DNA from: a virus
IMG/VR virus record: IMGVR_UViG_3300020468_000003
Coordinates: 41,045-105,044 of that record
Direction: 5' to 3' (one strand)
Length of the DNA stretch: 64,000 nucleotides
A program made the position numbers and the translations under genes. The notes beneath the pieces are model-generated. The model was given only the letters and a program-made list of their open reading frames with translations. It made no database searches and was not told the DNA's origin. Shown here piece after piece: positions 22,695 to 41,960 of the stretch (positions within the stretch are counted from its first letter, which is position 1; each line of letters starts with the position of its first letter).

Positions 22695-22889
22695 TTAGAC
22701 AAGGAACTCATCCATATAGTAATCAACTGTTACTTGCATTTTGGCAGCTTCCTTTTCTAAGTAGTCTCCATGTTGAGCAAGACCTTTATAGTATTCTTGT
22801 CTCTGTTTCCACTTGATGATTTCGATTTCAGATGTAATCATGTATTTTTTTAATAATTCCATAAATTCTTCTATCTCTTCATCATTCAT
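22695..22889 (-). CDS. Small acidic helical protein, 64 aa
   Basis: The start at 22889 (MNDEEIEEFMELLKKYMITSE) overlaps the halogenase stop by 8 bases. It is almost entirely helical and could form a coiled coil (EIIKWKQRQEYYKGLAQHGDYLEKEAAK). It is coupled to the halogenase gene. No family recognised. Confidence 0.65.
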   Translation of the reverse strand: MNDEEIEEFMELLKKYMITSEIEIIKWKQRQEYYKGLAQHGDYLEKEAAKMQVTVDYYMDEFLV

Positions 22890-24654
22890 AAGTAACAAAT
22901 CCCTTGGGTCTTTGTGTCCATTTCGGATTCTTATCTCTGTAACTTGGTTCTATAGTTTTCCTTTCTTGCTTTTTAACTTTCATTTTAACACGATCAGGCA
23001 TTGAATCATATATGTGTTGTGGCACATCATCTTCTGTCCCAACGAAAGTCATATCCCCACTTGAGTCGTGTATAGTCTTACATAAGTATTCATACAATGA
23101 AGGAAGTGTCTCTGCATAATTTATATATTTCTGTTGGGTCTCTCTGTATAGTTCTTGTAACCTATCACAATGCATTTCTGGATCAAATCCTTTCAATTTT
23201 CCTAGAGATCTATGCATTTGTGCATCAATTGGAGAATAGTTCATTCCTGCAGCAACACACTGGAATCCCGCAGTACCCTCCCTAAATTGATGATATTTGT
23301 ATGCGGACGTAGCATAGTAAAGTAATTCAAGATTCTCTCCCATTTCAGTTTCATAATTCAATGAATTATTGATTGTTGGGTCAATTCTAACTCTCTCTGT
23401 TACATCTTGCCAGTATGGTGTATCATCTCTTGAACTCAATGCATAATGCATACCAACAAAGTTTGCATGACCATAGAAAATATTTCTAAGTGCATAATTA
23501 AATGCATCCCTATCCCACTGATTAACAAAATCTTTGCGTAGTGTATAGATTAATGATAATAACCACTCATATGTTGTCATTAATCCTGTACTCTCTAATG
23601 GTTCAACAAAACCACTTGATAAACCAATCGCAACTACATTCTTCTCCCATGTCTTTTCATGTATTCCATTTCTCATTGTAATGGGTTTAAATTCAAGATC
23701 CTCAATAGGAACATTATCATAACGTGTGCGGATGTAATCCTTGAACTCCTCAAGAGCTTCATCATCACTGATATACTTATCACTATAAACATACCCTGCA
23801 CCAATACGTGACCATAAAGGTATGTTCCATGTCCATCCATTACTGAGAGCAGTGCAATTTGTAAATGGTTCTAGTTGTTTATTCTTATCTGTATATGGTA
23901 TATGTGTTGCCCATGCTTTATTATTTGGAATTATGTTCTCAATACTATTAAATTTAACTCCTAATGCACCCTCTAATAATAAACTTTTGAAACCAGTGCA
24001 ATCAATGTATAAATCAGCAGTTACTTTCTCTTTATTTTGTAAAATTAAAGACTCTATACCATCATCATTTGTATTAATCTTTTCAACTGTTGAATTAATT
24101 AACTTTACACCCTTTGGAAGACATATCTTTTTCTTAAGATATTGTCCTAATGCGGTAGCGTCAAAATGAAATGCAACATCTTGAACAAATGAGAAACCAG
24201 GTGTCTTTCCACTACTATCATCAGACATCTTATTATTCTCTGAAATTGCAGCAATTGGATAGTGGCAACGTGCAAATGAATTTTGATCAAGACCACCCCT
24301 ATTTCCTTTTAAGAACCACCAGTCATTTTGTGCTACTTGTTCTATTGGTCTTTGTGCCTCTCCAAAAGGATAATGGAATCCTCCTGTATCTTTTCCTAAC
24401 CAATCTGTAAATTTAATACTTAACTTATAACTACCATCTGTTTCTGTTAAAAGATCTTTATCCTCAAGACCTATCAATGATGACCAGTGCTTTATACCAC
24501 CAAGAGTACTTTCTCCAACTCCCAATATAGGAAAGTCTGGACTCTCAATGATAGTAACATCAATGTTCGGAAGTTGTGTTGCAAATGTGGCAGCAGACAT
24601 CCAACCTGATGAACCACCACCCACAATGCATATGCTTTTAATCTTTTTGCTCAT
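22882..24654 (-). CDS. Flavin-dependent tryptophan-halogenase-like enzyme
   Basis: Starting at the ATG at 24654 the protein has 590 residues. IVGGGSSGW near residue 10 binds FAD. GVGESTL and SYKLSIKFTDW contain Lys77, at the position of the catalytic Lys79 of PrnA/RebH. A W-x-W-x-I-P element (WTWNIPL, about residue 270) blocks oxygenase chemistry in this family. VEPLESTG (about 350) carries the conserved Glu. It would need reduced FAD from a host reductase. An upstream TTG start is rejected because it lies inside the 48-aa gene. Substrate unknown. Confidence 0.88.
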   Translation of the reverse strand: MSKKIKSICIVGGGSSGWMSAATFATQLPNIDVTIIESPDFPILGVGESTLGGIKHWSSLIGLEDKDLLTETDGSYKLSIKFTDWLGKDTGGFHYPFGEAQRPIEQVAQNDWWFLKGNRGGLDQNSFARCHYPIAAISENNKMSDDSSGKTPGFSFVQDVAFHFDATALGQYLKKKICLPKGVKLINSTVEKINTNDDGIESLILQNKEKVTADLYIDCTGFKSLLLEGALGVKFNSIENIIPNNKAWATHIPYTDKNKQLEPFTNCTALSNGWTWNIPLWSRIGAGYVYSDKYISDDEALEEFKDYIRTRYDNVPIEDLEFKPITMRNGIHEKTWEKNVVAIGLSSGFVEPLESTGLMTTYEWLLSLIYTLRKDFVNQWDRDAFNYALRNIFYGHANFVGMHYALSSRDDTPYWQDVTERVRIDPTINNSLNYETEMGENLELLYYATSAYKYHQFREGTAGFQCVAAGMNYSPIDAQMHRSLGKLKGFDPEMHCDRLQELYRETQQKYINYAETLPSLYEYLCKTIHDSSGDMTFVGTEDDVPQHIYDSMPDRVKMKVKKQERKTIEPSYRDKNPKWTQRPKGFVTYE

Positions 24655-24784
24655 TCTTTTTGTTTCTACGTTCTTCAACTAATTTTAGGAACTCCTCATC
24701 TGGAGTAAAGATTACAGGACCTTCGGCAATCCTCTCCTCCAGTTCATCCAATAATGGATCCTTTTCATTGTTTTTTTCAGTCAT
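24638..24784 (-). CDS. Small acidic/basic helical protein, 48 aa
   Basis: ATG at 24784 opens MTEKNNEKDPLLDELEERIA, then GPVIFTPDEEFLKLVEERRN. It overlaps the halogenase start by 17 bases, so the two are coupled. No family recognised. Confidence 0.6.
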   Translation of the reverse strand: MTEKNNEKDPLLDELEERIAEGPVIFTPDEEFLKLVEERRNKKNEQKD

Positions 24785-24788
24785 TTTT

Positions 24789-25034
24789 TTACAAGAGATC
24801 TAAGTCTTTTCCGTGTTTGAGTTTATCCACTTCAACAGGTGGCACAAAGGCATTGAAATTATTTTTAATTTGCTCTAGTCTATCTGCTTGAGCACCTAGT
24901 TTTTTTAAAACAGTGCGACTATTAACATCAAACTTTTTAGCAGATGTATCAATCCCCTTTCCTAAAAGGACATCAATTAAAAAATCACACTCAGATTCAT
25001 CTAAGTCTGATTGTAATCTATGTATGGTTCCCAT
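24789..25034 (-). CDS. Small protein of unknown function, 81 aa
   Basis: The start at 25034 (MGTIHRLQSDLDESECDFLIDVLL) follows the upstream stop by 10 bases; the longer frame starts with TTG inside the previous gene. It has a helix-rich C-terminus VLKKLGAQADRLEQIKNNF. It lies between an oxygenase and the halogenase unit. No family recognised. Confidence 0.65.
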   Translation of the reverse strand: MGTIHRLQSDLDESECDFLIDVLLGKGIDTSAKKFDVNSRTVLKKLGAQADRLEQIKNNFNAFVPPVEVDKLKHGKDLDLL

Positions 25035-25044
25035 AATACTCAAT

Positions 25045-25935
25045 TTAAACACCCTTGTCTTGTGTACTTTCGTCAACGATTGTATCTAATTCAGATAACT
25101 TTGGATACATTCCCTTAAATGTATCTGCGTTTTGTTTCTGTTTTTTCATATCATCATCCATCTCTATTCTACCTGTGTTTTCATTAAATTGCAATAGCAT
25201 TTTTCTACCTGCCTTTCTAGCAGTTTCTCTAAAGTTTGGCGATATACCAGTTGTATCATTTGAAAATGTGGTTACATGATCACTTAACCATCCAGTACAA
25301 ACATACTTACTACCTTTAGTGACAGTTTCTCCTCTATGATAGAAATACCATGAAGCAGGGAAACAAATCAACTTTCCAGTTTTTGGTGCTACATTGAGTA
25401 TATCATTACTATTTCCACCAACTCTAAATTGTGTATGCCCACCATCAAAATCATCATTGAGATACCACATATATGTGAATAATCTTCTTGCTTGCAAAAC
25501 AGTTCCAGAATCTCTATATCCTCTTAATGGAAATACTATCGTATCTAAAATTGGAGAGACATCATCATCAGCATGCCAATCATAACTTTCTCCAACATTA
25601 GTTCTTTGTACTTGATATCCAGAATCAACCATGTCCCCTTTTGATTGAACAACATCACCTAATTTTTCTTTTATGTAAGTTAAATATTTTTTTACATGTG
25701 GGGAAAGTACTTCAAAAAAGTATGCATCATATTCTTCCCATTCTGGCCATTGAGATATCCACAGATCAGTTGATTTTTTGATACTTGTTCCATCAGCGTG
25801 TCCCTCAGTATCAGATGCTGTGATTCCCGCACTTTTACGATGATCATATTCAAATTTTTCAATGATCTCTTTGCATTTATCAGCAGGTATGACATCATCA
25901 TACTGCACTATCATATCGGCAAAATTAGTTATCAT
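25045..25935 (-). CDS. Prolyl-4-hydroxylase-like 2OG-Fe(II) oxygenase
   Basis: In this 296-residue protein YDWHADDD supplies the HxD (His121, Asp123). FPASWYFYHRGETVTKGSKYVCTGWL supplies the distal His200 and Lys210, the residue that binds 2-oxoglutarate in P4H-type enzymes. FTYMWYLNDDFDGGHTQF between them is the typical P4H strand. The C-terminus is polar. It overlaps the upstream oxygenase-like gene by 11 bases. Substrate unknown; proline hydroxylation is possible but not shown. Confidence 0.85.
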   Translation of the reverse strand: MITNFADMIVQYDDVIPADKCKEIIEKFEYDHRKSAGITASDTEGHADGTSIKKSTDLWISQWPEWEEYDAYFFEVLSPHVKKYLTYIKEKLGDVVQSKGDMVDSGYQVQRTNVGESYDWHADDDVSPILDTIVFPLRGYRDSGTVLQARRLFTYMWYLNDDFDGGHTQFRVGGNSNDILNVAPKTGKLICFPASWYFYHRGETVTKGSKYVCTGWLSDHVTTFSNDTTGISPNFRETARKAGRKMLLQFNENTGRIEMDDDMKKQKQNADTFKGMYPKLSELDTIVDESTQDKGV

Positions 25936-26434
25936 GTTGTTTTAAATTAAATGCTAAAATAATTCTTTTATCCATAACAGGTGGACTAAAATGATATATC
26001 TCTGGGTCCCAGATTAATAAATCTCCAACCTTAACTTTAGATGTTGTTGTGTTACATTGATGCAACGGATCTTGAAAATAAGTAGATTGTCCCTCGGTTA
26101 AAAATAAACAACCAGAACCACTTATTTTTGTTCCTGTATGATTATGTATAGGATGAAATCCACCAGGTTCATACACTTGAACCCAAGAATTGTCAAATGC
26201 TTCTGCAGGAGCTATAGGTTCTAAAACTTTGTAAATCCACGGAACTATATGTGCTTCATTCTTTGTACCATAAGTTGTCCAAAGTCTTCCATGATCAACA
26301 TATTTTCCATACTTCTTACACCATTCTTCAACCTTATCAAGAAATCCCTCTGGTATGGGAATATTATCTTTAATAACAATTGAAGGTGGAAAAAGTTGTT
26401 GATGCTCTGGTCCTTTTTTCTTTTCTTCACTCAT
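25925..26434 (-). CDS. 2OG-Fe(II) oxygenase/cupin-like protein
   Basis: PGGFHPIHNHTGTKISGSGCLFL, TYFQDPLH, VGDLLIWDPEIYHFSPPV and KRIILAFNL in a 169-residue protein fit the compact 2OG-FeII_Oxy_5-type beta-helix: metal His pair, distal His, then Arg. It overlaps the upstream methylase fragment by 8 bases and the next oxygenase by 11. Whether it is active is uncertain. Confidence 0.7.
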   Translation of the reverse strand: MSEEKKKGPEHQQLFPPSIVIKDNIPIPEGFLDKVEEWCKKYGKYVDHGRLWTTYGTKNEAHIVPWIYKVLEPIAPAEAFDNSWVQVYEPGGFHPIHNHTGTKISGSGCLFLTEGQSTYFQDPLHQCNTTTSKVKVGDLLIWDPEIYHFSPPVMDKRIILAFNLKQHDN

Positions 26435-26831
26435 AAAATGCCTCTAATCCAACTGGTTCTCCAAAACTATAATCATAAGTTAATGCATCATGACAAACAT
26501 AATGCGGATGATCAGGTTTTACACCTAATCTTTTACACAATTCAAGATGATTATCCTCCATGAGTTCTACTGCATACAACATATTGTTTAGTATGTGTTC
26601 CTCATCATGATACTGCAGCAATTTAGTTTTAAGAGTAACTAAAAAGTTACCACTACCTGCTGAATTATCTAGGAAAGTAGAATTAGGGTTCTTTTTTACA
26701 TCATCTGGTATATCATTTATCATTCTAGCACAAACATCCATAGGTGTAAACACTTCGCTAGTAGCATTTATCCTATCATCTGATCTTTCAATTACAGATC
26801 CTACACTCTTATTGTGGTCGTTTCTTTTCAT
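26427..26831 (-). CDS. SAM-binding half of a DNA adenine methylase (motifs X and I)
   Basis: SEVFTPMDVCARMI (residues 25-38) is motif X, and STFLDNSAGSGNFLVTL (51-67) is motif I of N6-adenine methylases. LYAVELMEDNHLELC resembles motif II. The catalytic NPPY motif is absent from its 134 residues but present in the adjacent upstream 1039-aa protein, whose gene it overlaps by 4 bases. The two probably assemble into one split methylase, with the order of halves reversed from the usual X-I-IV. Confidence 0.8.
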   Translation of the reverse strand: MKRNDHNKSVGSVIERSDDRINATSEVFTPMDVCARMINDIPDDVKKNPNSTFLDNSAGSGNFLVTLKTKLLQYHDEEHILNNMLYAVELMEDNHLELCKRLGVKPDHPHYVCHDALTYDYSFGEPVGLEAFYE

Positions 26832-29800
26832 AAAATATCAGGAATAGTTCTGAATAATTCTTTTGAATTAGTATTAACTATCCTATTCTTTAGAACCATT
26901 TGATGTACTTCATCAGATCTTAAATAATCTGCAAGTTTATTACTCTCCTCCTCAGAAGATGTTTTTATGATAACTGTAGATCCACTAATAGAATGATCGT
27001 AAGGTTTGATACGGATCTGTCCAAAACCTTGTCCACCGTATTTACTATTCATTACAACTCCATGTTGATTAATACAACAAGTATGCTGAGACTTATCAAC
27101 ATTAGTAACTTGCATCTCTCCATTTTTACCACCCATTGTAGTTATCATAGGATACTCTCCCTCAATCAATTGATTTAAGTTCAAATCTCCACGTTGATAG
27201 CGATGTCCCATATTGTTAGAAACATCTGAAACAAAATCTGGATTAGTAAATCTAATACAAGTATCATCAGTAAGTTGAATATTCTTTACTGTACCATCAA
27301 GATAAGTTAATTTTGTTAGTCCAGTGTATCCACGTTTCCATGTACAAATACATGTCTCTGTCATTGATATAGATGGAAATGTATCAGGAGATAATGCTTC
27401 AATAGAAACAATACCTGGTGTTGAAAACAAAGTTCTTCTAAACTTTGATGTGGATTTAGCAAAGTGTTTTGATCGAATTACTTCTGATACATAATCAGAT
27501 CTTTTCATTGCACTTAGATAAAAATGTGTATCTAAAGTTTTTGCACATCCACCTGTGGTTGCACCTGTTACTGTAGATGTATCTGTATATGGTGGATTAC
27601 CAACTGTAGCACTAAACTGCATTTTGTAATTACTAAGGTTGTCGGTTACATTAATTTTAGCATTAATCTGCTTTATTGCATAGCGATGAGTAGGATCGTT
27701 TTCCCACACCACTATGTCATCGGGTTCCCAAGATTTATTCTCTATTGCATATAAAGAATGAAGTCCAGAGGGATCTCCATGTATATACAACTTTTCAGTT
27801 GTATCCTTTTTTAAAGGAATCATCCTATCAAGAATATCTAATGAAAGTGTCTTTTGATTCTTTCTTGTTGTTGCAAGTTTCTGTAAGGTTCCACATTCAT
27901 CTTTAGACATAGAATGTTCAATATCTATGATTCCTTGATTAATTCTATTGATCCAAGATTTAGGTATAATCTTTTGTTCTAAACAAGCTTTGATAATACC
28001 AGTAGTGTCTCCTGTGTCATGTTCATAATATTTTGAACTAAGAATACTATCTACACTTTTAGGTGTGGATTTATTCTTTATCATATGGAAGATAACTAAT
28101 CCTATTCTCTCCATGTATGCTTGAATAGTTTCTGTTTTCTGTGCTATCTCAGACTTATCAAAATGTGTAGAAAATTTAGATGAACTGGTAAGTTTCTTAT
28201 TACTGTTTGCGTTAGCATTGTTTTCATTTACTGTAAAAGAACTCCATGAAGATAACTTTGCACTCTTCTGAAAATTATCAAATTCAATGTCTCCTAACTT
28301 AAGAAAATCTAATTGAGATACAATACCTGATATCAAAGATACTGCACTGTCTACATCATTAGATAGAATTTCGTTTAGACGTTCTGGTGTTACTTCTTCA
28401 AAATCAGAGAAGTATTCAAAGATAGGAACTAAATCAAGAAGTTCATATTCAGATTCTGTTAACTCATGATTCAAATCACATGCAGTAAAATACATGTTTC
28501 TGATTGTAGTAAAACAACGTTCTGGGCAAAAATCAATTACATCCCAAAAGTTTCTCTTTGTTGATCCACCACGGAAAGCAAACTGTGTCCATTGTTCTCT
28601 TGATGATCCTTCTGCACAATTCATAACAGTATCAATACCCTCTGCAGTTAGACCAAGAACATTTGCAGTTTTAGTTAAGATAACTGTAGATGTGTTAGTA
28701 TCAATATGTGATCTGATTGTCTCAGAATTTTCTCTAGTATCTGAAGTTACAACTAATGGTTTAAATCTTGTTGATTTAAAATAATCTACAAGTGCATGAC
28801 ATGATGCCATAGAAGGCAAAGTTATCATTACATGTCTACAGTTCTTTAGTATTCTTTTGTTATACTTTATTCCATCTTGAGTAAACACTTTACTCATAAA
28901 TTCATCAACTAATATTGGTTCAGCAAAATCATCCTCATCTTTGTTTACTCTAAAAATATTACCCATTGCATCAGGATCATCGCCATATAAGTCTTGATAT
29001 TTACTGGACTCATACTTTGCAAGAATCAATCTCATCTGTGGAGAATTTACATACTCCTTTATACCTTGCAATTTATACAATTGCTCCTCAAAATATGAAT
29101 ATACAAATCTAAATTTAGGAAAATCTTCTAAGATTTTATGTGCAGTTCCTGAGACATACAATACTTTTGTATCGAAGTGATCTCTAAGACTTATCCATTG
29201 ATCTCCCTCATATCCAAGATGTGCTTCATCGAATACTATTAGATCAATATTACAAGGTAGATTCTTATATCTGTTAGGAGCTTGAATAGTAGAATATAGA
29301 ACTATTTGTTTTTCAGTTCCCATCCAATACTCTATCTCATTCTTAAACTGATCTACTTCACCATCACGAATATCAATGAATATAATATTATCAAAGTTTT
29401 TAAACTGTTGGGAATCATCTCTCCATGATTGTTTAGGAGAATTTCTATATGAAACAACTAAGGATACCTTAACATTACTCTCTACAATAGAGGAAAGAAC
29501 CATTGTAGATTTACCTGCACGACACTTAGCAAATAACAAATACTCTTTCCATTCATCCCATGTTGAAGTTATCTCAGATACAAATTCTTTTTGGTGTTTG
29601 CGAAGTTTACGATATTCTTTTTCCTCTACATTATTTGTAAAAAACTCTTCTTCAATAAGATCCTTTACAACATCAATACTTAAACCATGACCATCTTCAA
29701 TTTTATAAGTCTCTCTACCAGTTTGTGTAATACCACGTTGTTTTTTTAACCAACTATGTATCTCATGATCTCTACCATCAAAATCTGTCCACCATCCTCT

Positions 29801-29947
29801 CTTTATTCTTGCACTACCAACTGCTGCTAAATCTTGTTTTGACTTACCATAGTCTCCACCTTTATGTCTATCTTCATATGTGTGTATGGTTTCTCCTAAA
29901 CCGAAGGCAGACGGATTACCTTTAAACCCGTCAAGGTAAATGTTCAT
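26828..29947 (-). CDS. Helicase-methylase fusion with NPPY motif, 1039 aa
   Basis: Residues about 140-148 (AKCRAGKST) are Walker A. VFDEAH (240-243 DEAH) is motif II and VSGTAH near 270 is motif III. ILTKTANVLGLTAEGIDTVMNC and QWTQFAFRGGS resemble motifs V and VI of SF2 helicases. NPPY at 784-787 is the N6-adenine methylase catalytic motif. The C-terminal 250 residues look like a target-recognition part. The N-terminal 110 residues (DHEIHSWLKKQRG...GRETYKI) faintly resemble a T5orf172/GIY-YIG tail. Architecture recalls type ISP restriction enzymes but lacks motifs X/I, which are in the next gene. Confidence 0.8.
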   Translation of the reverse strand: MNIYLDGFKGNPSAFGLGETIHTYEDRHKGGDYGKSKQDLAAVGSARIKRGWWTDFDGRDHEIHSWLKKQRGITQTGRETYKIEDGHGLSIDVVKDLIEEEFFTNNVEEKEYRKLRKHQKEFVSEITSTWDEWKEYLLFAKCRAGKSTMVLSSIVESNVKVSLVVSYRNSPKQSWRDDSQQFKNFDNIIFIDIRDGEVDQFKNEIEYWMGTEKQIVLYSTIQAPNRYKNLPCNIDLIVFDEAHLGYEGDQWISLRDHFDTKVLYVSGTAHKILEDFPKFRFVYSYFEEQLYKLQGIKEYVNSPQMRLILAKYESSKYQDLYGDDPDAMGNIFRVNKDEDDFAEPILVDEFMSKVFTQDGIKYNKRILKNCRHVMITLPSMASCHALVDYFKSTRFKPLVVTSDTRENSETIRSHIDTNTSTVILTKTANVLGLTAEGIDTVMNCAEGSSREQWTQFAFRGGSTKRNFWDVIDFCPERCFTTIRNMYFTACDLNHELTESEYELLDLVPIFEYFSDFEEVTPERLNEILSNDVDSAVSLISGIVSQLDFLKLGDIEFDNFQKSAKLSSWSSFTVNENNANANSNKKLTSSSKFSTHFDKSEIAQKTETIQAYMERIGLVIFHMIKNKSTPKSVDSILSSKYYEHDTGDTTGIIKACLEQKIIPKSWINRINQGIIDIEHSMSKDECGTLQKLATTRKNQKTLSLDILDRMIPLKKDTTEKLYIHGDPSGLHSLYAIENKSWEPDDIVVWENDPTHRYAIKQINAKINVTDNLSNYKMQFSATVGNPPYTDTSTVTGATTGGCAKTLDTHFYLSAMKRSDYVSEVIRSKHFAKSTSKFRRTLFSTPGIVSIEALSPDTFPSISMTETCICTWKRGYTGLTKLTYLDGTVKNIQLTDDTCIRFTNPDFVSDVSNNMGHRYQRGDLNLNQLIEGEYPMITTMGGKNGEMQVTNVDKSQHTCCINQHGVVMNSKYGGQGFGQIRIKPYDHSISGSTVIIKTSSEEESNKLADYLRSDEVHQMVLKNRIVNTNSKELFRTIPDIL

Positions 29948-30058
29948 TTTCTCCGAATAAATTGGGTGCGAGAAACAAAAACTCGGACTTACAGGACGTA
30001 ATTTCTCTGCTGAACAAAGACAACCATAGATCCTTGCCTGTTTTGTTTCCCTGTATTA
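29948..30058 (-). promoter_or_regulatory. Leader before the helicase-methylase gene, with possible short leader peptide
   Basis: The -10 at 30064-30059 lies 112 bases before the start codon at 29947, far more than usual for the cassette. In the leader, ATG at 30027 opens a 12-codon frame (MVVFVQQRNYVL, stop 29989) after AAGGA. It may be a translated leader or chance; no repeats or strong hairpin are obvious. Confidence 0.35.
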
Positions 30059-30112
30059 ATTATAGCATGAAAAAACCCCCTGTAAAGGGGGTTGTGACAG
30101 TTTCTAAACTGT
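30059..30112 (-). promoter_or_regulatory. Stop-codon repeat, terminator hairpin and promoter (copy M)
   Basis: ACAGTTT (30097-30103) and AAACTGT (30106-30112) are perfect arms at the stop of the 89-aa gene. An AACCCCC/GGGGGTT hairpin (30093-30074) with TTTTTTC follows, then TATAAT (30064-30059). The cassette recurs here 12 kb away from the main block. Confidence 0.7.
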
Positions 30113-30373
30113 TTTTCTTTTTCTCATCCTAGTGGTCATTTCAGTGTATTCTACAGGTGCCCACTCAACTTCCTTGGGTTTTGTTTTTCTTAGATTAGCA
30201 GTCTCTTTTTTAACAAAGGTAGAAGATTCTTCTTTAGTATTCTTTGCAAGAGATTGTCCAGAATTTAATTCCTTTGCAACTTCTGGTTCATCAAATTGTT
30301 TCAAATAACTTTTTCTGCTAAAAAGTTTTTTGGATTCTACAGCATCTTCAGAAGTTATTGGTTCATCAGTCAT
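30104..30373 (-). CDS. Small basic protein, 89 aa
   Basis: The start at 30373 (MTDEPITSEDAVESKKLFSRKS) overlaps the upstream stop by 8 bases; the longer extension lies in the upstream gene. The rest is polar and Lys-rich, ending RMRKRKTV, the last residues encoded by the cassette repeat. It is probably disordered. Function unknown. Confidence 0.65.
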   Translation of the reverse strand: MTDEPITSEDAVESKKLFSRKSYLKQFDEPEVAKELNSGQSLAKNTKEESSTFVKKETANLRKTKPKEVEWAPVEYTEMTTRMRKRKTV

Positions 30374-30632: not shown

Positions 30633-30659
30633 AGTTAATTGATTAAACTCCTACATTAC

Positions 30660-30667: not shown

Positions 30668-30675
30668 ATTTAGCA

Positions 30676-31374: not shown

Positions 31375-31489
31375 TCTGTAATTCTTTTGATGTTAAATTA
31401 TTTAACCAACTCCAATCTGGGTCTTTTTTGTCCCATTCTGCAGTAAAAGAACCATCATCATTTCTGTTAATTTTTAGAGAGTTGTTCAT
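31337..31489 (-). CDS. Small acidic protein after ho1, 50 aa
   Basis: ATG at 31489 (MNNSLKINRNDDGSFTAEWD) overlaps the ho1 stop in an ATGA-type junction. A Trp-rich turn (DPDWSWLNNLT) leads into a helix KELQNVFEQAVRM. No family recognised. Confidence 0.6.
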   Translation of the reverse strand: MNNSLKINRNDDGSFTAEWDKKDPDWSWLNNLTSKELQNVFEQAVRMDQQ

Positions 31490-32169
31490 CTTGGCATACG
31501 ATCAAATATTGATGCCAAAATAATTTGGAAAAATGATTTTGCTGCGTTGCCTTTTAACTCATCAAACATATACATGTTCAATCTGAATGCGTAATTTGCT
31601 TCTGTAATTATAGCATTCTTTTCTGATACTGTCAGTGGTAATTCATCTAATGCACTACGATATTTTTCTTTATATGCTTTAGCATCATCAATATTTTCAA
31701 ACTCATAAAAGTCTAAACCAGCTTTCTCTAAGTTCATTGCTTTCTTTGCAATGTTTTTTAATATTTGTCCTCCTGACAAATCTCCCAAGTATCGTGTATA
31801 ATGATGACCAACTAATAATTCTGGTTCATCTTCAGCAACTTCACGAATACGATTAACATATTGTTTACATGCTTGACTTGGTTCTATTTTAGTTCTCCAA
31901 TCAAGACCATAGTAATATAGTAAATCTTTTTCTAATGCTATCAATCTTTCTAATTCTGGAAAATATAAACTACCAACTATAGGGTGTGTTCTTAACCCAT
32001 ATACTTCCTCCTCTAATGCCTTATAAACGAAGTAGAGATCCGATACTAAGCATTTGTAATTGTCTGGACTTACAACTCCACGTAAAAATGATTTGACAAA
32101 AGCAGTGTTCTCTGCTGCTGTATGTGATTTCTTTGTTCCTACTTTTAATTCCTTTGCAAAATTAGTCAT
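31486..32169 (-). CDS. ho1: Heme oxygenase (biliverdin-forming), cyanophage ho1
   Basis: This 227-residue protein has the heme-oxygenase start MTNFAKELKVGTKKSHTAAENTAFVKSFLRG, with the proximal heme-binding His16. GHHYTRYLGDLSGGQILKNIA at about 122-142 is the distal-helix signature with the flexible GxxxG-type glycines. It opens heme to biliverdin, feeding phycobilin pigments, as in host HO1. Cyanophage versions are host-derived auxiliary genes. The start overlaps the 42-aa gene by 8 bases, and the unit is read from a late promoter at 32327-32320. Confidence 0.96.
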   Translation of the reverse strand: MTNFAKELKVGTKKSHTAAENTAFVKSFLRGVVSPDNYKCLVSDLYFVYKALEEEVYGLRTHPIVGSLYFPELERLIALEKDLLYYYGLDWRTKIEPSQACKQYVNRIREVAEDEPELLVGHHYTRYLGDLSGGQILKNIAKKAMNLEKAGLDFYEFENIDDAKAYKEKYRSALDELPLTVSEKNAIITEANYAFRLNMYMFDELKGNAAKSFFQIILASIFDRMPR

Positions 32170-34518: not shown

Positions 34519-35026
34519 TTAATCTATCAAATTCAAAAGGTCCATAATCAGATCCCCAAACTTTCTCATTTGTAGTTTTGGAGTATCCAATATCAATTGT
34601 AGTGTATGTAGTGGTTGTGATTTGAACTCTACTCTGAACGTAAGAATCCCTTACTATGCAATCACATCCATACAAACCACCAGAATATGTATTATAATCT
34701 ATTTGGGAGAATAATAAATCACAACCATTGTTATGATGTAAATCATTTGTAGTAATCGTATCCAGATTTTTAAATCCAGTAAATCTGTTTTTTTCTTTGA
34801 TATCATAGTTTTTTACTTTCATTAGTTCCCCATCCATCACAGGTTCAATGATAAATTGTCGGTATGGTCTATCCTCATCATATGTATATGCTTGTTCTCC
34901 ATATATCAAATTGTTACCAATATCTTTATGTATCAATCTGATATGAGCATAGAATGTAGGATTTTGATATGCCTGTCTTCTATTATCAAATGTACCTATC
35001 AGTAACTCTTTGAGTCTTTCGATCAT
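34511..35026 (-). CDS. cpeT: CpeT/CpcT-type phycobiliprotein lyase
   Basis: TFDNRRQAYQNPTFYAHIRLIHK, YGEQAYTYDEDRPYRQFIIEP, GCDLLFSQIDYNTYSGGLYGCDC and GYSKTTNEKVWGSDYGPFEFDR match the CpcT/CpeT family in order. Host members attach phycobilins to phycobiliprotein cysteines. At 171 residues it is the size typical of cyanophage copies. It is coupled to a 52-aa gene upstream (ATGA) and to the oxygenase-like gene downstream. Confidence 0.9.
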   Translation of the reverse strand: MIERLKELLIGTFDNRRQAYQNPTFYAHIRLIHKDIGNNLIYGEQAYTYDEDRPYRQFIIEPVMDGELMKVKNYDIKEKNRFTGFKNLDTITTNDLHHNNGCDLLFSQIDYNTYSGGLYGCDCIVRDSYVQSRVQITTTTYTTIDIGYSKTTNEKVWGSDYGPFEFDRLNA

Positions 35027-35181
35027 ACTGAGTACTTTTCTCTCATTGCTAATAATGTTTCATAGGGAATCCATGCAGGATTCTCTTCTGCGAATTGAAC
35101 TTCAACCTCAGTAAATATTTTTTGATAGTATCTACTGTAAGTTTCTCTAGTGTTTAAAACATTACAGAAAGGACTCATCAT
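35023..35181 (-). CDS. Small protein upstream of cpeT, 52 aa
   Basis: The start at 35181 (MMSPFCNVLNTRETYSRYYQK) gives a helical protein ending AWIPYETLLAMREKYSV. It overlaps cpeT by 4 bases. The -10 at 35210-35205 lies 24 bases upstream. No family recognised. Confidence 0.6.
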   Translation of the reverse strand: MMSPFCNVLNTRETYSRYYQKIFTEVEVQFAEENPAWIPYETLLAMREKYSV

Positions 35182-35204
35182 TTTGCACCATGCATACTGT
35201 TGAC

Positions 35205-35239
35205 ATTATAAAACCCTTAACTAAAAAAGTCAAGGGTTT
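35205..35239 (-). promoter_or_regulatory. Terminator hairpin plus -10 promoter before the cpeT unit
   Basis: Perfect 8-bp arms AAACCCTT (35211-35218) and AAGGGTTT (35232-35239) abut minus-strand TATAAT (35210-35205), with a short T run inside. This is the cassette without the stop-codon repeat. Confidence 0.65.
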
Positions 35240-35319
35240 ATACTTTAATTGCAATTTTTATTTAAGGTGGATGCTGATATTTTATCATTTGACTGCTTTA
35301 GATAAATGTTTACGTTGAG

Positions 35320-35463
35320 TTAGAAAACCTCCCTACATACACGTTTACAAACATGGTCTTTGTCATCGCAGTCAATTAAGCATTCGTAGTATTCTGTGAT
35401 TAAATCCTCATGGGGGTCTTGATGTTCTCCCGCCAATTGATTAAAAGGAATTAAGTTATGCAT
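35320..35463 (-). CDS. Small conserved Cys-containing protein, 47 aa
   Basis: ATG at 35463 opens MHNLIPFNQLAGEHQDPHED and continues through YYECLIDCDDKDHVCKRVCREV with four cysteines, a possible small metal or disulfide unit. I associate this N-terminus with small T4-like cyanophage proteins. The 125 bases upstream hold no gene. Function unknown. Confidence 0.7.
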   Translation of the reverse strand: MHNLIPFNQLAGEHQDPHEDLITEYYECLIDCDDKDHVCKRVCREVF

Positions 35464-35588
35464 TAATTGTCTCCAAATATAGTGTGATAATAAAAAAAAG
35501 ATTTCAGATCATCTGTTTCAACCCTAATTCTACTACTATTTAGTTAGGAGATCAACACAAAATCATTTTTGTTAACAAAAAGAAATGC

Positions 35589-35936
35589 CTACGTGATTGT
35601 ACCTACTCGCCCATAATCATCCATTAATCTTACAATATCATCCTCTCTACACTCTCCAGTTTGAGTCTCAACTATAGTCATTCCATCATCCCCTGCCTTC
35701 GCTCTATGTGGAGATGTTTCACAAATTACATATATGTCTTCTGGTTTAGCATTGTATTCGCTACCATCTGCAATAACTATTCCACTCCCCTCTGTAACAA
35801 CCCAGAACTCTTTTCTGTGGTTATGATATTGATAGGAAAAAGAACAGTTAGGATTAAGATGTAATCTTTTTACTTTATAATTTGGTTCATCCAATAAAAC
35901 TTCATAATGTCCCCATGGTTTAGTCACTCTCTCCAT
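35589..35936 (-). CDS. Mannose-6-phosphate isomerase-type cupin
   Basis: PWGHYEVLLDEPNYKVKRLHLNPN, SYQYHNHRKEFWVVTEGSGIV and DIYVICETSPHRAKA are the strands and metal-binding histidines of the type II phosphomannose isomerase/ManC C-terminal cupin. At 115 residues only the isomerase-like domain is present. Together with the dehydratase gene it suggests sugar-nucleotide metabolism. Activity is not certain. Confidence 0.85.
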   Translation of the reverse strand: MERVTKPWGHYEVLLDEPNYKVKRLHLNPNCSFSYQYHNHRKEFWVVTEGSGIVIADGSEYNAKPEDIYVICETSPHRAKAGDDGMTIVETQTGECREDDIVRLMDDYGRVGTIT

Positions 35937-35939
35937 AAA

Positions 35940-36218
35940 TTATCTCCACTTTGATAGTGATTTAGTTTCTACTAATTTTTCAGTTTCAATTATATCACTT
36001 TCATCTGCATTTGTGTGATGTGTTACTTCTTTTAAAGTTTTAACATAATCTATAACATGTTGTCTGATCTCCATAAGTTCATCATAACAACCTTGATTAT
36101 GTGCACAACCACGCAAATTATGATCTGGTTTCCAAAGAGATTCGGTAAAGAGATCTAATGCTCTTTGATATTTTACAGCAGGTGTTTCACCCTTATCTAT
36201 TGAGTTTTGGTCGTGCAT
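35940..36218 (-). CDS. Small protein of unknown function, 92 aa
   Basis: MHDQNSIDKGETPAVKYQRALDL begins a helical protein. NLRGCAHNQGCYDELMEIRQHVIDYVKTL contains two Cys and a His-rich loop. It overlaps the upstream 79-aa gene by 22 bases. No family recognised. Confidence 0.6.
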   Translation of the reverse strand: MHDQNSIDKGETPAVKYQRALDLFTESLWKPDHNLRGCAHNQGCYDELMEIRQHVIDYVKTLKEVTHHTNADESDIIETEKLVETKSLSKWR

Positions 36219-36436
36219 TTTCTTTTCTTATTTTGTTTTTTGTACTGAGCGATAAAAGTTCTTGCAGAATCTTCATTCCTACATTTCCTTAATCTTTCTC
36301 CATTATGTATCACGATGACAGCTTTTCCACCGCATGGGATAGCATAAAAACCATCATTTGTTGCAAATCCCATTTTAGCATCTTTATAGAATCTGGCAAT
36401 AGCCCTTAATTCTTTTTCTTCGGCAGTCATTGCCAT
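36197..36436 (-). CDS. Small basic protein, 79 aa
   Basis: The N-terminus MAMTAEEKELRAIARFYKDAK is helical. GFYAIPCGGKAVIVIHNGERL follows, then a very basic tail (KKQNKKRKCTTKTQ), which hints at nucleic-acid binding. No family recognised. Confidence 0.6.
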   Translation of the reverse strand: MAMTAEEKELRAIARFYKDAKMGFATNDGFYAIPCGGKAVIVIHNGERLRKCRNEDSARTFIAQYKKQNKKRKCTTKTQ

Positions 36437-36438
36437 GA

Positions 36439-36579
36439 TTACATTACTGCTGTTGTAGAAACAATAGTTGCATTTGGATTTCTTGCAAGAGCAACCTGCT
36501 GTGCTTCATGATAGTTTGCAGCATTAACTACTTCATTGAATAGTTTTCCTGCTACCATTAATTGTACTTTAACTTTCAT
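36439..36579 (-). CDS. Small conserved protein, 46 aa
   Basis: ATG at 36579 is preceded by AGGAGA. MKVKVQLMVAGKLFNEVVNA and EAQQVALARNPNATIVSTTAVM give a strand-helix-strand unit of the kind found in small cyanophage proteins. It is coupled to the methylase region. Function unknown. Confidence 0.65.
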   Translation of the reverse strand: MKVKVQLMVAGKLFNEVVNAANYHEAQQVALARNPNATIVSTTAVM

Positions 36580-36600
36580 AGGAGTCTCCTTTTAATTATA

Positions 36601-36657
36601 TATCCATTATAATGGATATTTTAATCTATTATGTCCATAATGGACACTTTGTAATCT
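36601..36657 (-). promoter_or_regulatory. Diverged cassette with palindromic -10 (copy N)
   Basis: TATCCATTATAATGGATA (36601-36618) is a perfect palindrome containing TATAAT, 27 bases before the 46-aa start. The methylase C-terminal codons carry the diverged repeat GTGACAGATTACAAAGTGTCC. Confidence 0.6.
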
Positions 36658-37709
36658 GTCACTCTTTTCTGTATTAGTTTACCATACTCTTCATTAAGTT
36701 CGCAACCTATGTAATCTCTACCTAATTGTTTTGCTACCATTCCAGTAGTACCTGATCCCATGAAAGGATCTAAAATTATATCTCCCTTTTCGCTCCCTGC
36801 TTTAATACATGGTTCAATTAATGCAGGTGGAAATACAGCAAAGTGTGCACCTTTATATGGTTTATTTGTTACTGACCAGACAGATCGTTTATTTTTTGTT
36901 GGATATGATTTTGTAAGTCCGCTATGTGGTTGGAGTCCTGTTCCTGTGTTATGGTATTTTCCGTTTGTTCTGTCTCTTGTTCCCCAATCTTTTGCGGGTT
37001 CTTTGATTGCTTCATTATCGTAGTGGTATTTTCTATTTTTACTAAACAAAAATATATATTCGTGTGCTTTAGTACACCTATCCCTTACACTTTCTGGCAT
37101 AGGATTAGGTTTATGCCAAATGATATCTTGTCTTAGATACCATCCATCTGCTCTCATTGCGAAGGCAAAGAGCCATGGGATTCCGATGAGGTCTTTTTCT
37201 TTAAGTCCATCGATTCTATTTCCTCTACGAGGACACACATCTGGTAAGTCTTGTTTTGAATTTGCAACAGTTTGTTTTGGAAGTCCTTGTCCTTTTCCAG
37301 GTCTGTAGTTATAGTAACTATCCCCAAGATTAACCCAACAAGTTCCATCATCTGTAAGCACATTGCGAACCTCCTTAAATACGTTTACTAATTGATCAAC
37401 ATATTCTTCTGGAGTCTCCTCCAATCCGATTTGATCATCTTGTCTTACTGCACCACATTTTGGACACACACTTTTGTATATGTAATCTCCAACACCACCC
37501 ATGATGTCAGCATTTTTATGACCAGTAATACAATTTGAACCTTGCTTACCTTTTTTTCTATGATCACAATTAGGATCTCCTCCTATCCAAGTAGCAGTTC
37601 CATAATCCCTGAGACCATAGTATGGTGGAGATGTTACACACATCCTTGCCTGTTCGTCAAATTGTTTGAGTGTCTCCCGACAATCTCCAAATAAAATTGT
37701 GTCTCTCAT
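36621..37709 (-). CDS. N4-cytosine/N6-adenine DNA methylase (SPPY class)
   Basis: TSPPYYGLRDYG at 26-37 holds the SPPY catalytic motif of beta-class methylases, which more often modify N4-cytosine. ILDPFMGSGTTGMVA near residue 320 is the SAM-binding motif I, in the reversed order typical of this class. The Cys/His run CDHRKKG...CPKCG is an unusual insertion, perhaps a zinc site. It has 362 residues. The start overlaps the stop of the upstream helicase gene by 4 bases. No partner restriction nuclease is visible beyond the helicase. Confidence 0.88.
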   Translation of the reverse strand: MRDTILFGDCRETLKQFDEQARMCVTSPPYYGLRDYGTATWIGGDPNCDHRKKGKQGSNCITGHKNADIMGGVGDYIYKSVCPKCGAVRQDDQIGLEETPEEYVDQLVNVFKEVRNVLTDDGTCWVNLGDSYYNYRPGKGQGLPKQTVANSKQDLPDVCPRRGNRIDGLKEKDLIGIPWLFAFAMRADGWYLRQDIIWHKPNPMPESVRDRCTKAHEYIFLFSKNRKYHYDNEAIKEPAKDWGTRDRTNGKYHNTGTGLQPHSGLTKSYPTKNKRSVWSVTNKPYKGAHFAVFPPALIEPCIKAGSEKGDIILDPFMGSGTTGMVAKQLGRDYIGCELNEEYGKLIQKRVTDYKVSIMDIID

Positions 37710-38890
37710 GATCTGATAACTGATGTTGCTGCTTGTCCTTTGTTGAATACAGTATCAATAACTGCTTCAACCTTTCTTGCGGTTGAAATACCAACCTTAG
37801 AGTAAACTGGAACACATACAAGTCCATAAACTTTGTCTTCCGCACCCTTACGGATTACTCTACCAATAGTCTGACTAATACCAATGTAATCCATAGATCT
37901 CATAAACAATACTGCCTCAAGACCTTTTACATTGATACCCTCTGAGAGGATGCTGTGATGGAGTACAACAAACTTTGTACCATCTACACCCCACTCGTTA
38001 AGTGTATTGAAGAACTCTTCTCTACTAACCTTCTTACCATTAACAAAAGCACCTGTCTTAGAAGTAATAAACATCCAGTTGTATCCACGCACTTGTAAAT
38101 CCATAACAAAAGGAGTTTGAGATATCAAGTTAGTAATCTGCTTTGTAGACTTAGCACATATCAATACTTTGTTCTTCTGAATATTATCAAGAGCATTGAT
38201 CATTTGATCGCAATCAGCATCTACAACCAACTCATCCTTCTCTAGTATTCTTGTCTTGTATACTGCAACCTTTGGTGGTAAGATATGTCCTTCCTCCACT
38301 AACTTAGGTGCAGGTACTTGGCAAATAACATTACCAAAGATATCAGCATCATTCATACCAACCTTAAGAGGTGTAAGAGAATGCTTTGGTGTAGCAGTAA
38401 AGAAGTATGCTCTTGCAGAATACATTGAAAAGTATTCAACTGCTTCAACAAAGTTCTTCTGAACTCCATTGTGTGCTTCATCAAAATAGATTGTATCTAC
38501 ATTAATACCACTCTCTACAATCTTATGTAATGAATGATATGTAGTAAACATAAGAGTATTCTTTCCCTTATTTGCATAGTGAAATAATTTAACATCGTTT
38601 ACTTGAGTACTGCAGAAATATAGACTCTTACCAGTTAGATCGCCACTGTGAACATGCATTACATCATCAGGATGAATGTCAATCATTTCGCGAAACTCTG
38701 AGCATAACTGCTTTGCAAGTAATATACGAGGTGCAACTACTACAATAGTCTTAGGAGCACTCTTGAACTGATATATCGCATCTTCTATCATGCACATTGT
38801 TTTACCACCACCAGTCGGAACAATAACTTGTCCCTTAGTGTTAGACTGCATAGCAACTAAAGAATCAATTTGATGTGGACGTAATTGCAT
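37706..38890 (-). CDS. SF2 DNA helicase, restriction-subunit-like
   Basis: The start is placed at 38890 (MQLRPHQIDSLVAMQ), 22 bases after the -10 of cassette O, because the longer frame crosses the cassette. VPTGGGKTMCM is Walker A (Lys30), FDEAH at about 136-140 motif II, FFTATP motif III, and QTIGRVIRKG motif VI. At 394 residues it is short but complete. The following methylase overlaps it by 4 bases. Could be repair/recombination (UvsW-like) or restriction-related. Confidence 0.85.
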   Translation of the reverse strand: MQLRPHQIDSLVAMQSNTKGQVIVPTGGGKTMCMIEDAIYQFKSAPKTIVVVAPRILLAKQLCSEFREMIDIHPDDVMHVHSGDLTGKSLYFCSTQVNDVKLFHYANKGKNTLMFTTYHSLHKIVESGINVDTIYFDEAHNGVQKNFVEAVEYFSMYSARAYFFTATPKHSLTPLKVGMNDADIFGNVICQVPAPKLVEEGHILPPKVAVYKTRILEKDELVVDADCDQMINALDNIQKNKVLICAKSTKQITNLISQTPFVMDLQVRGYNWMFITSKTGAFVNGKKVSREEFFNTLNEWGVDGTKFVVLHHSILSEGINVKGLEAVLFMRSMDYIGISQTIGRVIRKGAEDKVYGLVCVPVYSKVGISTARKVEAVIDTVFNKGQAATSVIRS

Positions 38891-38911
38891 TAACTTTGTT
38901 TCGTTATACTT

Positions 38912-38968
38912 ATTATAGCAAACACAATGCCATTTTGCAAATCCATGTGCCAGTATCTTAACTGTCTT
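38912..38968 (-). promoter_or_regulatory. Stop-codon repeat and promoter (copy O)
   Basis: Minus-strand GACAGTTAAGATACTGGCAC overlaps the stop of the 106-aa gene. A weak GCAAA/TTTGC hairpin and TATAAT (38917-38912) follow, then GTATAACGAAACAAAG before the helicase start. Confidence 0.6.
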
Positions 38969-39278
38969 TGTCCATTTTATCAGAAATTTTTTTGAGTGCT
39001 TCTTCCCATCCATCTTTATCTTGAGACCATTTATTTAATGGGCAAGACTCTAATATAACTCTAGCTTTGGCAGGTATGAAACATCCACATTCTGCACACA
39101 TATCCTTTTTCTTTATCCACATCTCACATGATTTACAAATCTCATGTCTAACCTTATAGGTTTCATCAGATACAACTAAAGACTCAGGTCCATTCTTTTT
39201 AATATAGGTAATAATATCCCATGAAAAATTAGCAAAATTTTTCGTCTTCTCAATAAAAGATGGTTCGTCTTTTTCCAT
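38958..39278 (-). CDS. Small zinc-ribbon-like protein, 106 aa
   Basis: EICKSCEMWIKKKDMCAECGCFIPAKARV (about 47-75) has CxxC and CxxCGCF, a zinc-ribbon pattern. It sits within a charged protein that ends in MDKDS, part of the cassette repeat. Probably DNA- or RNA-binding. Unknown role. Confidence 0.75.
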   Translation of the reverse strand: MEKDEPSFIEKTKNFANFSWDIITYIKKNGPESLVVSDETYKVRHEICKSCEMWIKKKDMCAECGCFIPAKARVILESCPLNKWSQDKDGWEEALKKISDKMDKDS

Positions 39279-39309
39279 ACATCTTAGTGTATCATATAAT
39301 TATGTATTG

Positions 39310-40464
39310 TCAAGGTGTGGCAGGATAATCTCCCTTAATTGTAGTAGAACTAATAGATCCAGTTACACTGTAACTTGTTCCTGCAATTGCTCTTCCTGCT
39401 AATCCACCATCTCCAGTATTATTACTATCTCCACCTGCTAATGCCCATTCTCCACCTGCACCACCACCTTCACCTGGTTGTCCTTGAGAAGAGTTACAAC
39501 CATTGTCGGGATCAGGTGCACTACCATTATCTCCCTGTAATCCAGCAGATTCATTTCCATGTCCTCTTCCAGTACCACCATCACCACCTTCTCCACCAAG
39601 TCCACCTGCTACAGTGTATTCATTAAGGCAGTCGTCATATCTGTACCAAGCAGTTGTTTCAAACCAACAACTTCCCCACCAGTTACAAGGTCTTCGTCTT
39701 GCACATCCAGCTCCTGAATAGCATCCACTTGTTGATGTCCATCCTTCTGGGCAATCAGGACAACTACCACAATTCACAACAGTTTCAAAATCTTGGCATA
39801 ATCCACTAGCACCTTGATCTCCTGTCTTTCCTTTTTCTCCTCCACCACCTCCACCATAAATTCTTGCAGAGGAGTTTACATTTACAACTAAATTTTCTCC
39901 ACCAGTAGAAATGATAGACAGTGCAGTTCCACCCTGCTGTCCACTGATTGAAACATTACCAGGTTTTCCACCACCTAATCCAGGTCCACCCTTAATTGTG
40001 CCAGTGATATCAAATAAAACGTTATATGCAGGAGACTGTTCAAATGAAGCTGCAGCAGAAAGTGCATTGTCAGATCCTATATTACCATCTACAAACATAG
40101 TTTTGTTTATAGTTTTTGCTAAATTAGTATTCCAACTTAAAGCATCAATATCAAAATAGATATCAGATCCAGTCTGTGTAATATAATAAAATTTTATACT
40201 ATTTCTAAATTGCCCCAAAGCAACATCACTAACAGAACCTATTGCAGAATTTTCTGTAGCATCTGGAACTATCGGATTTGCACTTGTAGGACTTGTATCT
40301 CTCTTCAACTCTGACATACTAATTGGAGCAAGATCAGAAGCGAATGTTTCAGATCCACCAGAAGTAGTTTTACGAGACTGTGCTCTAAAAGTTCTCCTTA
40401 ACTCACTAAAAGTTATGGGTCCTGAAGCGAAAAATGGTCCTGCTTTTGATACTGATACAGACAT
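39310..40464 (-). CDS. Glycine-rich adhesin-like virion protein with Cys/Trp cluster
   Basis: The N-terminus (SGPITFSELRRTF) is a fibre-base motif common in T4-like cyanophage tail proteins. A Gly-rich part follows (GGPGLGGGKPG, IYGGGGGG, GGEGGDGGTGRGHG), like the polyglycine adhesins of gp38-type fibres. Residues 223-279 contain nine Cys and five Trp, a compact domain of possibly disulfide- or metal-stabilised kind. It has its own late promoter 20 bases upstream. Likely distal receptor-binding protein; the halogenase gene directly upstream is notable. Confidence 0.75.
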   Translation of the reverse strand: MSVSVSKAGPFFASGPITFSELRRTFRAQSRKTTSGGSETFASDLAPISMSELKRDTSPTSANPIVPDATENSAIGSVSDVALGQFRNSIKFYYITQTGSDIYFDIDALSWNTNLAKTINKTMFVDGNIGSDNALSAAASFEQSPAYNVLFDITGTIKGGPGLGGGKPGNVSISGQQGGTALSIISTGGENLVVNVNSSARIYGGGGGGEKGKTGDQGASGLCQDFETVVNCGSCPDCPEGWTSTSGCYSGAGCARRRPCNWWGSCWFETTAWYRYDDCLNEYTVAGGLGGEGGDGGTGRGHGNESAGLQGDNGSAPDPDNGCNSSQGQPGEGGGAGGEWALAGGDSNNTGDGGLAGRAIAGTSYSVTGSISSTTIKGDYPATP

Positions 40465-40484
40465 TTATATACTATCTTTTTTAT

Positions 40485-40492
40485 TATTTATA
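40485..40492 (-). promoter_or_regulatory. T4-like late promoter TATAAATA before adhesin gene
   Basis: Minus-strand TATAAATA lies about 20 bases before the start at 40464, in a 29-base AT-rich gap after the halogenase gene. Confidence 0.65.
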
Positions 40493-40493
40493 T

Positions 40494-41960
40494 TTATTTT
40501 TTAATTATGACTGAACCATTTAAAACAGATCTATGGGGAACAGATCTACTTCTACTCTTTGTACTTTCTTGTAACTCATGATTTTCCTTACATTGTTCTA
40601 ATATTTTTTTTGATTTGGGTAAATTTTTTATAAATTCATTAACTGAATCTGCATTTATCATTTCTAAACCATTACTAACTTGTATGTAACTATCAATGTG
40701 CCATTGAGAATCCTCACTCATAAATCCAGCTGGTATAAATTCAATGGAACATTTTTCTTCATATGCCTTCATCCAATCTGTTTTATTAGCAGTCATATAT
40801 TTCCAGAAAGGAGAGTCTATTCTATTTGTAGCATAATGTAGACAAATAAAATTAAATATATCCAGATAACTTTTCTCATTAAAATTATTATAATTAATCC
40901 TATCAAAATCTAAAAACTTAAGAGTGGTATTATTCTGCACAAAAAATTGTAATTGATTATAAACTATATGAAGTCCTGTAGATTCTAATGGTTCAATAAA
41001 TCCACTTGCAAGACCAACAGATAAACAATTTCCTATCCAATTTTTCTTATAATATCCTGGTTTGTAATGAATCACTCTAGGATTATCATTTAATTCAACA
41101 CCATGATTCTTTTTCAACCATTCATTATAATTTTTCTTTGCCTCTTCATCAGTAGTGAACTTAGATGAATATACATATCCAGTTCCATATCTTTTCTTCA
41201 ATGGAATTTGCCATATCCAACCATCTTTTGTTGCTTCTGCTTGTGTATATGATGGTATTTCTACAAGATTATGAGGTATCTGTTGTGGAATTGCTCTATC
41301 TAATGGAAGATAACCTGTAATATCAACCCACTCAGGGTTTAAATGTTTAAATAAGACACTATTAAATCCAGAAGCATCGACATAAAAATCAGCAGTTACT
41401 TCTCCTCTATTTTTAAACACAATACTTTGTATACTTTTTCCATCTGAATTTACTCTCTCTACTACATCATCAATACGATCTATTTCATCTTCAATATCAT
41501 TTAAAATATATTGTGAGACAATTTGTGTATCTATGTGGAAGGCATGATCATAATAAAAATCATGACTGGGAACTGTTGTTGTTGCATTATTATGTAATAT
41601 CCCTCCATTGTAAGTTCCATTTGGAATTGAGTATAAAGATTCTGGATAATCTTGTCCTGAAGGATCTATATTACACTTATTAAATCCATGAAAATATTCT
41701 CTATTTCTTGTCCAATTTTTAAAATTTATTCCCAACTTTACAGTGCTTTCAGTGTCTTTAATAAAATCTGAAATTTGAACATATAGATATCTTTTAAGAA
41801 AATCTACAAATGCAGGTGTTGTACTCTCTCCAACACCTATATTTTTTTTCTTACTATCGTAATATATCTCTACTTTAACTCTACCTACATAAAATCTTTT
41901 GAGCATAGCAGCAGCAATCAGTCCAGATGAACCAGACCCAATAATAATAATTTTTTTCAT
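40494..41960 (-). CDS. Flavin-dependent tryptophan-halogenase-like enzyme, 488 aa
   Basis: IIGSGSSGLIAA at the N-terminus is the FAD motif. GVGESTTPA and STVKLGINFKNW contain Lys75, aligned with PrnA Lys79. WIWQIPL (about 244-250) is the W-x-W-x-I-P motif, and IEPLESTG (around 330) holds the conserved Glu. Compared with the 590-aa copy at 22.9 kb it is shorter and diverged. It lies between a large fibre gene (9 bases downstream of it) and the Trp-rich adhesin gene. Substrate unknown. Confidence 0.88.
   Translation of the reverse strand: MKKIIIIGSGSSGLIAAAMLKRFYVGRVKVEIYYDSKKKNIGVGESTTPAFVDFLKRYLYVQISDFIKDTESTVKLGINFKNWTRNREYFHGFNKCNIDPSGQDYPESLYSIPNGTYNGGILHNNATTTVPSHDFYYDHAFHIDTQIVSQYILNDIEDEIDRIDDVVERVNSDGKSIQSIVFKNRGEVTADFYVDASGFNSVLFKHLNPEWVDITGYLPLDRAIPQQIPHNLVEIPSYTQAEATKDGWIWQIPLKKRYGTGYVYSSKFTTDEEAKKNYNEWLKKNHGVELNDNPRVIHYKPGYYKKNWIGNCLSVGLASGFIEPLESTGLHIVYNQLQFFVQNNTTLKFLDFDRINYNNFNEKSYLDIFNFICLHYATNRIDSPFWKYMTANKTDWMKAYEEKCSIEFIPAGFMSEDSQWHIDSYIQVSNGLEMINADSVNEFIKNLPKSKKILEQCKENHELQESTKSRSRSVPHRSVLNGSVIIKK

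Follow-up and report, generated by a model that had tools for sequence, protein, structure and literature searches.

A flavin-dependent halogenase in a viral tail fiber operon and its candidate substrate, a tryptophan loop on the neighboring gp38-like adhesin

What does a phage do with a halogenase? Such enzymes have been recognized in cyanophages for many years, and one of them, VirX1, has been crystallized. The question is raised by a 64,000-nucleotide stretch of viral DNA, hereafter the window (positions 41,045 to 105,044 of IMG/VR record IMGVR_UViG_3300020468_000003), which encodes two flavin-dependent halogenases (FDHs), here called HalA and HalB. Our answer concerns HalB, which probably halogenates one or more loop tryptophans (Trp; candidates W262, W263, and W267) of the phage's own gp38-like adhesin as a dedicated modifying enzyme. 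This reading is favored because of the position of HalB in its operon, an association with the adhesin that is specific to Trp, and the co-inheritance of the halogenase with the class of loop. The features concerned are listed below in window coordinates.

44157-49436, minus strand: long tail fiber protein of 1759 amino acids (phrog_529, tail fiber protein).
41969-44143, minus strand: tail protein, the conserved flank of the cassette upstream of HalB (phrog_3269, tail protein, 1e-65).
40494-41960, minus strand: HalB, an FDH of 488 amino acids, between the tail protein and the adhesin (PF04820, 1e-85).
39310-40464, minus strand: glycine (Gly)-rich adhesin of 384 amino acids, gp38-like and receptor-binding by predicted fold, the proposed substrate of HalB.
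39610-39807, minus strand: cysteine (Cys)-rich insert, which spans adhesin residues 220-285, contains nine Cys and five Trp, is delimited by alignments, and forms beta hairpins in the model.
39664-39687, minus strand: CNWWGSCW, the Trp loop at residues 260-267 of the adhesin, modeled at the tip of a hairpin and proposed as the halogenation site.
22882-24654, minus strand: HalA, a VirX1-like FDH of 590 amino acids (PF04820, 2e-106), within an open reading frame (ORF) that extends to 24678 and would give 598.

HalA and HalB are both members of the FDH family with complete catalytic motifs. Their PF04820 bit scores of 356.8 and 288.8, respectively, pass the family cut-off of 21, and they are the only matches to this family in the whole 105 kb virus record, 64 kb of which make up the window. 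The GxGxxG motif, the catalytic lysine (Lys), the WxWxxP motif, and the glutamate (Glu) of EPL are all invariant among 31 phage halogenases that include these two. The catalytic Lys is K77 in HalA (numbered from the ATG) and K75 in HalB, and the EPL Glu of HalB is E323. EPLEST is present in HalA and HalB alike, with EPLEAT or EPLEAL in its place in some members of the HalB clade. An earlier note on this DNA had recognized two flavin halogenases with their motifs and Lys77 and Lys75 kept, which the family scores and the invariant residues confirm, and had described them as different in length and sequence, in agreement with lengths of 590 and 488 amino acids and an identity of 25%. Its further remark that both look active is consistent with the conserved motifs and goes as far as these motifs take it. 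The HalA ORF (22882-24678) opens at a TTG that falls within a small upstream ORF, and the likely start is therefore the ATG at 24654. For HalB, an AlphaFold2 model with a predicted local distance difference test score (pLDDT) of 90 matches the FDH fold with a Z of 49. In halogenases of free Trp (the PrnA, RebH, and PyrH type), a C-terminal region binds the amino-acid part of the substrate. The sequence match between HalB and RebH stops near RebH residue 440, and the predicted folds align over approximately their full length, a comparison of spans rather than of single residues.

The setting of HalB is a one-strand cassette that runs from the long tail fiber gene through the tail protein and HalB to the adhesin. 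The same order is found in phage S-SRM01, which holds the nearest annotated relative of HalB (57% identity) and whose last cassette gene, the adhesin homologue, was deposited as "adhesin tip complex", and it recurs in many IMG/VR contigs. For a comparison of loci, adhesin and tail protein relatives were gathered from IMG/VR. At 29 loci that lack the halogenase, the tail protein and the start of the adhesin are separated by -1 to 25 bp. At 22 loci, a halogenase lies between the two, with a gap of 3-25 bp to the tail protein and, in most cases, of 0-35 bp to the adhesin. The isolate P-SSM2 likewise has no halogenase at its tail-tip site, and its adhesin still follows the tail fiber and tail protein genes. 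When 31 contigs without an upstream halogenase were searched whole, none had a PF04820 match elsewhere, and contigs of known carriers did score; the absence of a halogenase from any one phage is unproven because contigs may be fragments.

The adhesin was modeled with AlphaFold2 from a 37-sequence alignment (pLDDT 88). The structural matches that stand out as strong are two, gp38 of phage S16 (Z 17.6 over 230 residues) and of PP01 (Z 15.3), with the next best at 5.1, and Foldseek gave an E of 4e-6. A plain Pfam search did not list PF05268 (gp38) for this protein. We predict that the adhesin is a gp38-type receptor-binding tip that would, judging from its fold alone, bind a host receptor. In known gp38 structures, receptor loops protrude from polyglycine sandwiches (PMC12892980). 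The adhesin shares the predicted fold, the Gly-richness, and a variable region with gp38 of S16 and PP01 (PDB 6f45 and 9v85). What sets it apart from those proteins is a Trp loop carried on a Cys-rich insert, and about half of the distinct adhesins compared have a halogenase gene immediately upstream.

Across adhesins, the presence of the halogenase is associated with Trp in this insert. The mean number of insert Trp is 4.5 in 33 adhesins with the halogenase and 1.0 in 34 without it (p=1e-9), whereas the tyrosine (Tyr) count and insert length are equal between these groups, and adhesins with the halogenase have no excess of Trp outside the insert. Among 11 adhesins with the halogenase that were fetched later, 11 have Trp. 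In the combined set of 83 adhesins, any Trp is present in 43/43 with a directly upstream halogenase and in 24/40 without one, and a GW, WG, or WW pair is present in 42/43 and 8/40, respectively. The Trp effect holds after correction for phylogeny: phylogenetic generalized least squares, with a tree built from the adhesin N-terminus, gave a slope of +2.65 Trp (p=3e-7; p=6e-5 under Brownian motion), with p=0.10 for Tyr and a slightly negative result for phenylalanine. A cluster test by insert family gave p=0.32. In the aligned inserts, the Trp-bearing loop is missing or free of Trp in most loci without a halogenase. The loop CNCSGWWFWYGC of a locus with the halogenase (L080) can be set against CNCGKGGC of one without it (L160), and CCQTYCQWCGWSTC (L196, with) against CCQSYSYCCGLFNC (L071 and L152, without). 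The loops without a halogenase retain the Cys-rich framework and lose the Trp.

The halogenase is also inherited together with the type of loop. Four loop classes were defined by motif (NWWG, GWWxW, CCQ, and GPW/CSWG). On a HalB tree of 38 loci, these classes require three changes, which is the minimum, and NWWG and GWWxW each form a clade with a support of 100 in the Shimodaira-Hasegawa-like approximate likelihood ratio test. The adhesin N-terminus, which is encoded between HalB and the loop, requires seven changes, and NWWG and CCQ are rejected as clades on it by the approximately unbiased test (0.0014 and 0.0001). The upstream tail protein requires six changes, and the same two clades are rejected (4e-9 and 2e-4). 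The loop classes are not rejected as clades for the adhesin C-terminus, which suggests that the insert and the C-terminus may be a single unit of exchange. Distance correlations agree (the partial r between halogenase and insert is 0.44 given the backbone) and are less telling than the trees. As read from these trees, the pattern is the one expected if enzyme and loop are under selection to match, and passive linkage does not easily give it.

A number of points weigh against the proposal that HalB modifies the adhesin. Cys is also higher in adhesins with the halogenase (p=4e-4), and some adhesins without an upstream halogenase retain Trp, with four in L161. The later locus set taken alone has no difference in Trp (p=0.54) because it includes only four loci without a halogenase, and a sign test of independent pairs on supported branches found only two pairs and has no power. 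The loop classes were set by the analyst after viewing the loops. Halogenases of the HalB clade adjoin this adhesin above approximately 50% identity, are mixed at about 43-50%, and none does so below about 43%. Finally, the entire support, from family, motifs, and predicted folds to the cassette, the Trp association, and co-inheritance, is comparative genomics.

With these points in mind, other explanations can be assessed. Cyanophage halogenases have been suggested to act on host metabolites or in antibiotic protection (PMC10452541, PMC2984593), many small aromatic compounds serve as in vitro substrates of VirX1 (PMC8407142), and the halogenases of S-PM2 and P-SSM2 are far from tail genes. 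HalB could accordingly be an auxiliary metabolic gene that acts on a host small molecule or free Trp, with its place beside the adhesin reflecting only a recombination hot spot for host range. This is unlikely in our judgment, as it predicts neither a Trp enrichment limited to one loop of the neighboring protein nor a match between halogenase lineage and loop class across unrelated flanks. The same adjacency could also come from passive linkage, with the halogenase and the adhesin loop swapped as one block of DNA while the enzyme targets another phage or host surface protein. The adhesin C-terminus is compatible with the loop classes as clades, so blocks are exchanged, and the gene order of bacterial HalB relatives described below makes other surface proteins possible targets. 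Yet the adhesin N-terminus, whose coding sequence separates HalB from the loop, rejects the loop classes, and the Trp-specific difference is left unexplained, which makes this account a decidedly poor prospect. It is more improbable still that HalB is a flavoprotein that does not halogenate, for instance an oxidase or assembly factor dependent on the Cys-rich insert, with the link to Trp being secondary. The higher Cys count and the EPLEAT or EPLEAL of some clade members would suit such a protein, but the catalytic Lys, the Glu, and WxWxxP are invariant, and the loops of halogenase-free loci keep the Cys framework and drop the Trp.

If HalB does modify its neighbor, the chemistry would presumably follow the general FDH route, which is established for the halogenase family. 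From oxygen, a halide, and reduced flavin that the host provides, a hypohalous species would form and pass through Lys75 to the substrate. HalB would then halogenate one or more Trp in the Cys-flanked hairpin CNWWGSCW, in which we infer disulfides, before or during virion assembly, and the halogenated loop could alter or strengthen contact with the receptor and thereby affect adsorption. A wider proposal, which seems to us on balance likely, is that the enzyme and adhesin genes of cyanophages form matched cassettes, with every lineage of halogenase specific to its own class of Trp loop, and that the halo-tryptophan which the enzyme installs at the receptor-binding tip tunes host recognition.

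Known enzymes offer partial parallels. VirX1 of cyanophage Syn10 (PDB 6qgm) is the best solved relative of HalA (3e-102) and, like HalA and HalB, a phage-encoded FDH. HalB shares its fold (Z 38.4) but is shorter, is only about 27% identical, and has a candidate protein substrate encoded beside it. Action of FDHs on Trp within peptides has precedent in a brominase of ribosomally synthesized and post-translationally modified peptides (RiPPs) and in ChlH (PMC10858898, PMC12518702, PMC12615548). These RiPP halogenases (MibH, SrpI-type brominase, and ChlH) act on Trp of a ribosomal peptide encoded nearby. The HalB model matches the MibH fold (Z 39.7), a likeness of fold rather than of closer sequence kinship to any of the three, and their substrates are secreted natural-product peptides, in contrast to the folded virion protein proposed for HalB. 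The nearest cellular relatives of HalB among the matches listed are proteobacterial FDHs (in Caulobacter, Colwellia, and Thalassotalea, for example; up to 35% identity). In six of six loci examined (L298, L299, L301, L304, L317, and L340), the bacterial gene comes directly after one for an outer-membrane TonB-dependent receptor. Unlike HalB, these genes are chromosomal and have no linkage to tail genes; a link between halogenase and surface protein may predate the phage cassette. A Cupin_8 gene is also present at L298.

Other genes occur around the adhesin and in distant halogenase loci.

38958-39278: protein of 106 amino acids with six Cys, directly after the adhesin.

This small protein was considered as a specific partner and rejected, since it is found both with the halogenase (38/38 loci) and without it (28/37). 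In L056, a 2-oxoglutarate (2OG)-Fe(II) oxygenase gene (7377-7976; PF13640, 3e-17) sits between the halogenase and the adhesin and is perhaps a second tailoring enzyme. The distant phage halogenases of L419, L421, L422, L423, L427, L430, and L432 are each two touching ORFs of approximately 490 amino acids that begin like halogenases and have no linkage to an adhesin of the window's kind.

HalA, by sequence, is a separate VirX1-like enzyme. The earlier note had treated 22882-41960 as one region, but HalA and HalB sit in separate loci about 16 kb apart, HalB in the tail fiber operon and HalA among five 2OG-Fe(II) oxygenase-like ORFs (20220-26434), and the idea that the two form one system found no support.

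20220-20717, 20717-21358, and 21836-22651, minus strand: 2OG-Fe(II) oxygenase-like ORFs beside HalA (PF13640 or PF13759; the first slightly under the Pfam cut-off).
25045-25935 and 25925-26434, minus strand: 2OG-Fe(II) oxygenase-like ORFs beside HalA (PF13640, 1e-13, and PF13759, 4e-7).

Our guess is that these oxygenases are protein hydroxylases for tail proteins. The tail protein encoded at 50538-53177 (phrog_1806) is rich in Gly, has matches to collagen-like families, and is a possible substrate for them. HalA relatives are near Gly-rich ORFs in Syn10, S-RIM44, and Sf-CH11, and no Gly-rich adhesin-like gene was found close to HalA in the window. A 1039-amino-acid ORF with ResIII helicase-like and Eco57I-like methylase parts (26828-29947) is conserved beside HalA relatives. 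Protein-bound or virion targets were among the options raised in the earlier note; operon position, Trp association, and co-inheritance favor such a target for HalB, and no target is favored for HalA.

A cyanomyovirus identity for this marine phage fits its matches to CpeT and to a ferredoxin family, its baseplate genes of T4-like type, and relatives in Synechococcus phages. An ORF at 31486-32169 we take to be a heme oxygenase. Cyanomyovirus records commonly have halogenases at two or three places (Syn9, Syn10, S-RIM44, P-TIM40, P-RSM6, and Sf-CH11), and a 2010 review already marked prnA twofold in one phage (PMC2984593); the pair that was first thought unusual is thus no rarity.

Halogenases of phages, and the enzyme family as such, were known before, and the pairing of halogenase and adhesin is the new part. 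In the open-licence literature searched, which is not all literature, the pairing of a halogenase with a receptor-binding adhesin was not found, and only a general review matched a link between halogenase and tail fiber. For the long-standing question of what these enzymes act on, our reading supplies a concrete candidate protein, loop, and residues. If it is true, a virus uses halogen to alter the chemistry of its own receptor-binding protein. Host-range evolution would then have an added chemical layer, and the cyanophage cassettes would hold a natural collection of Trp halogenases that act on proteins and differ in the loops they prefer.

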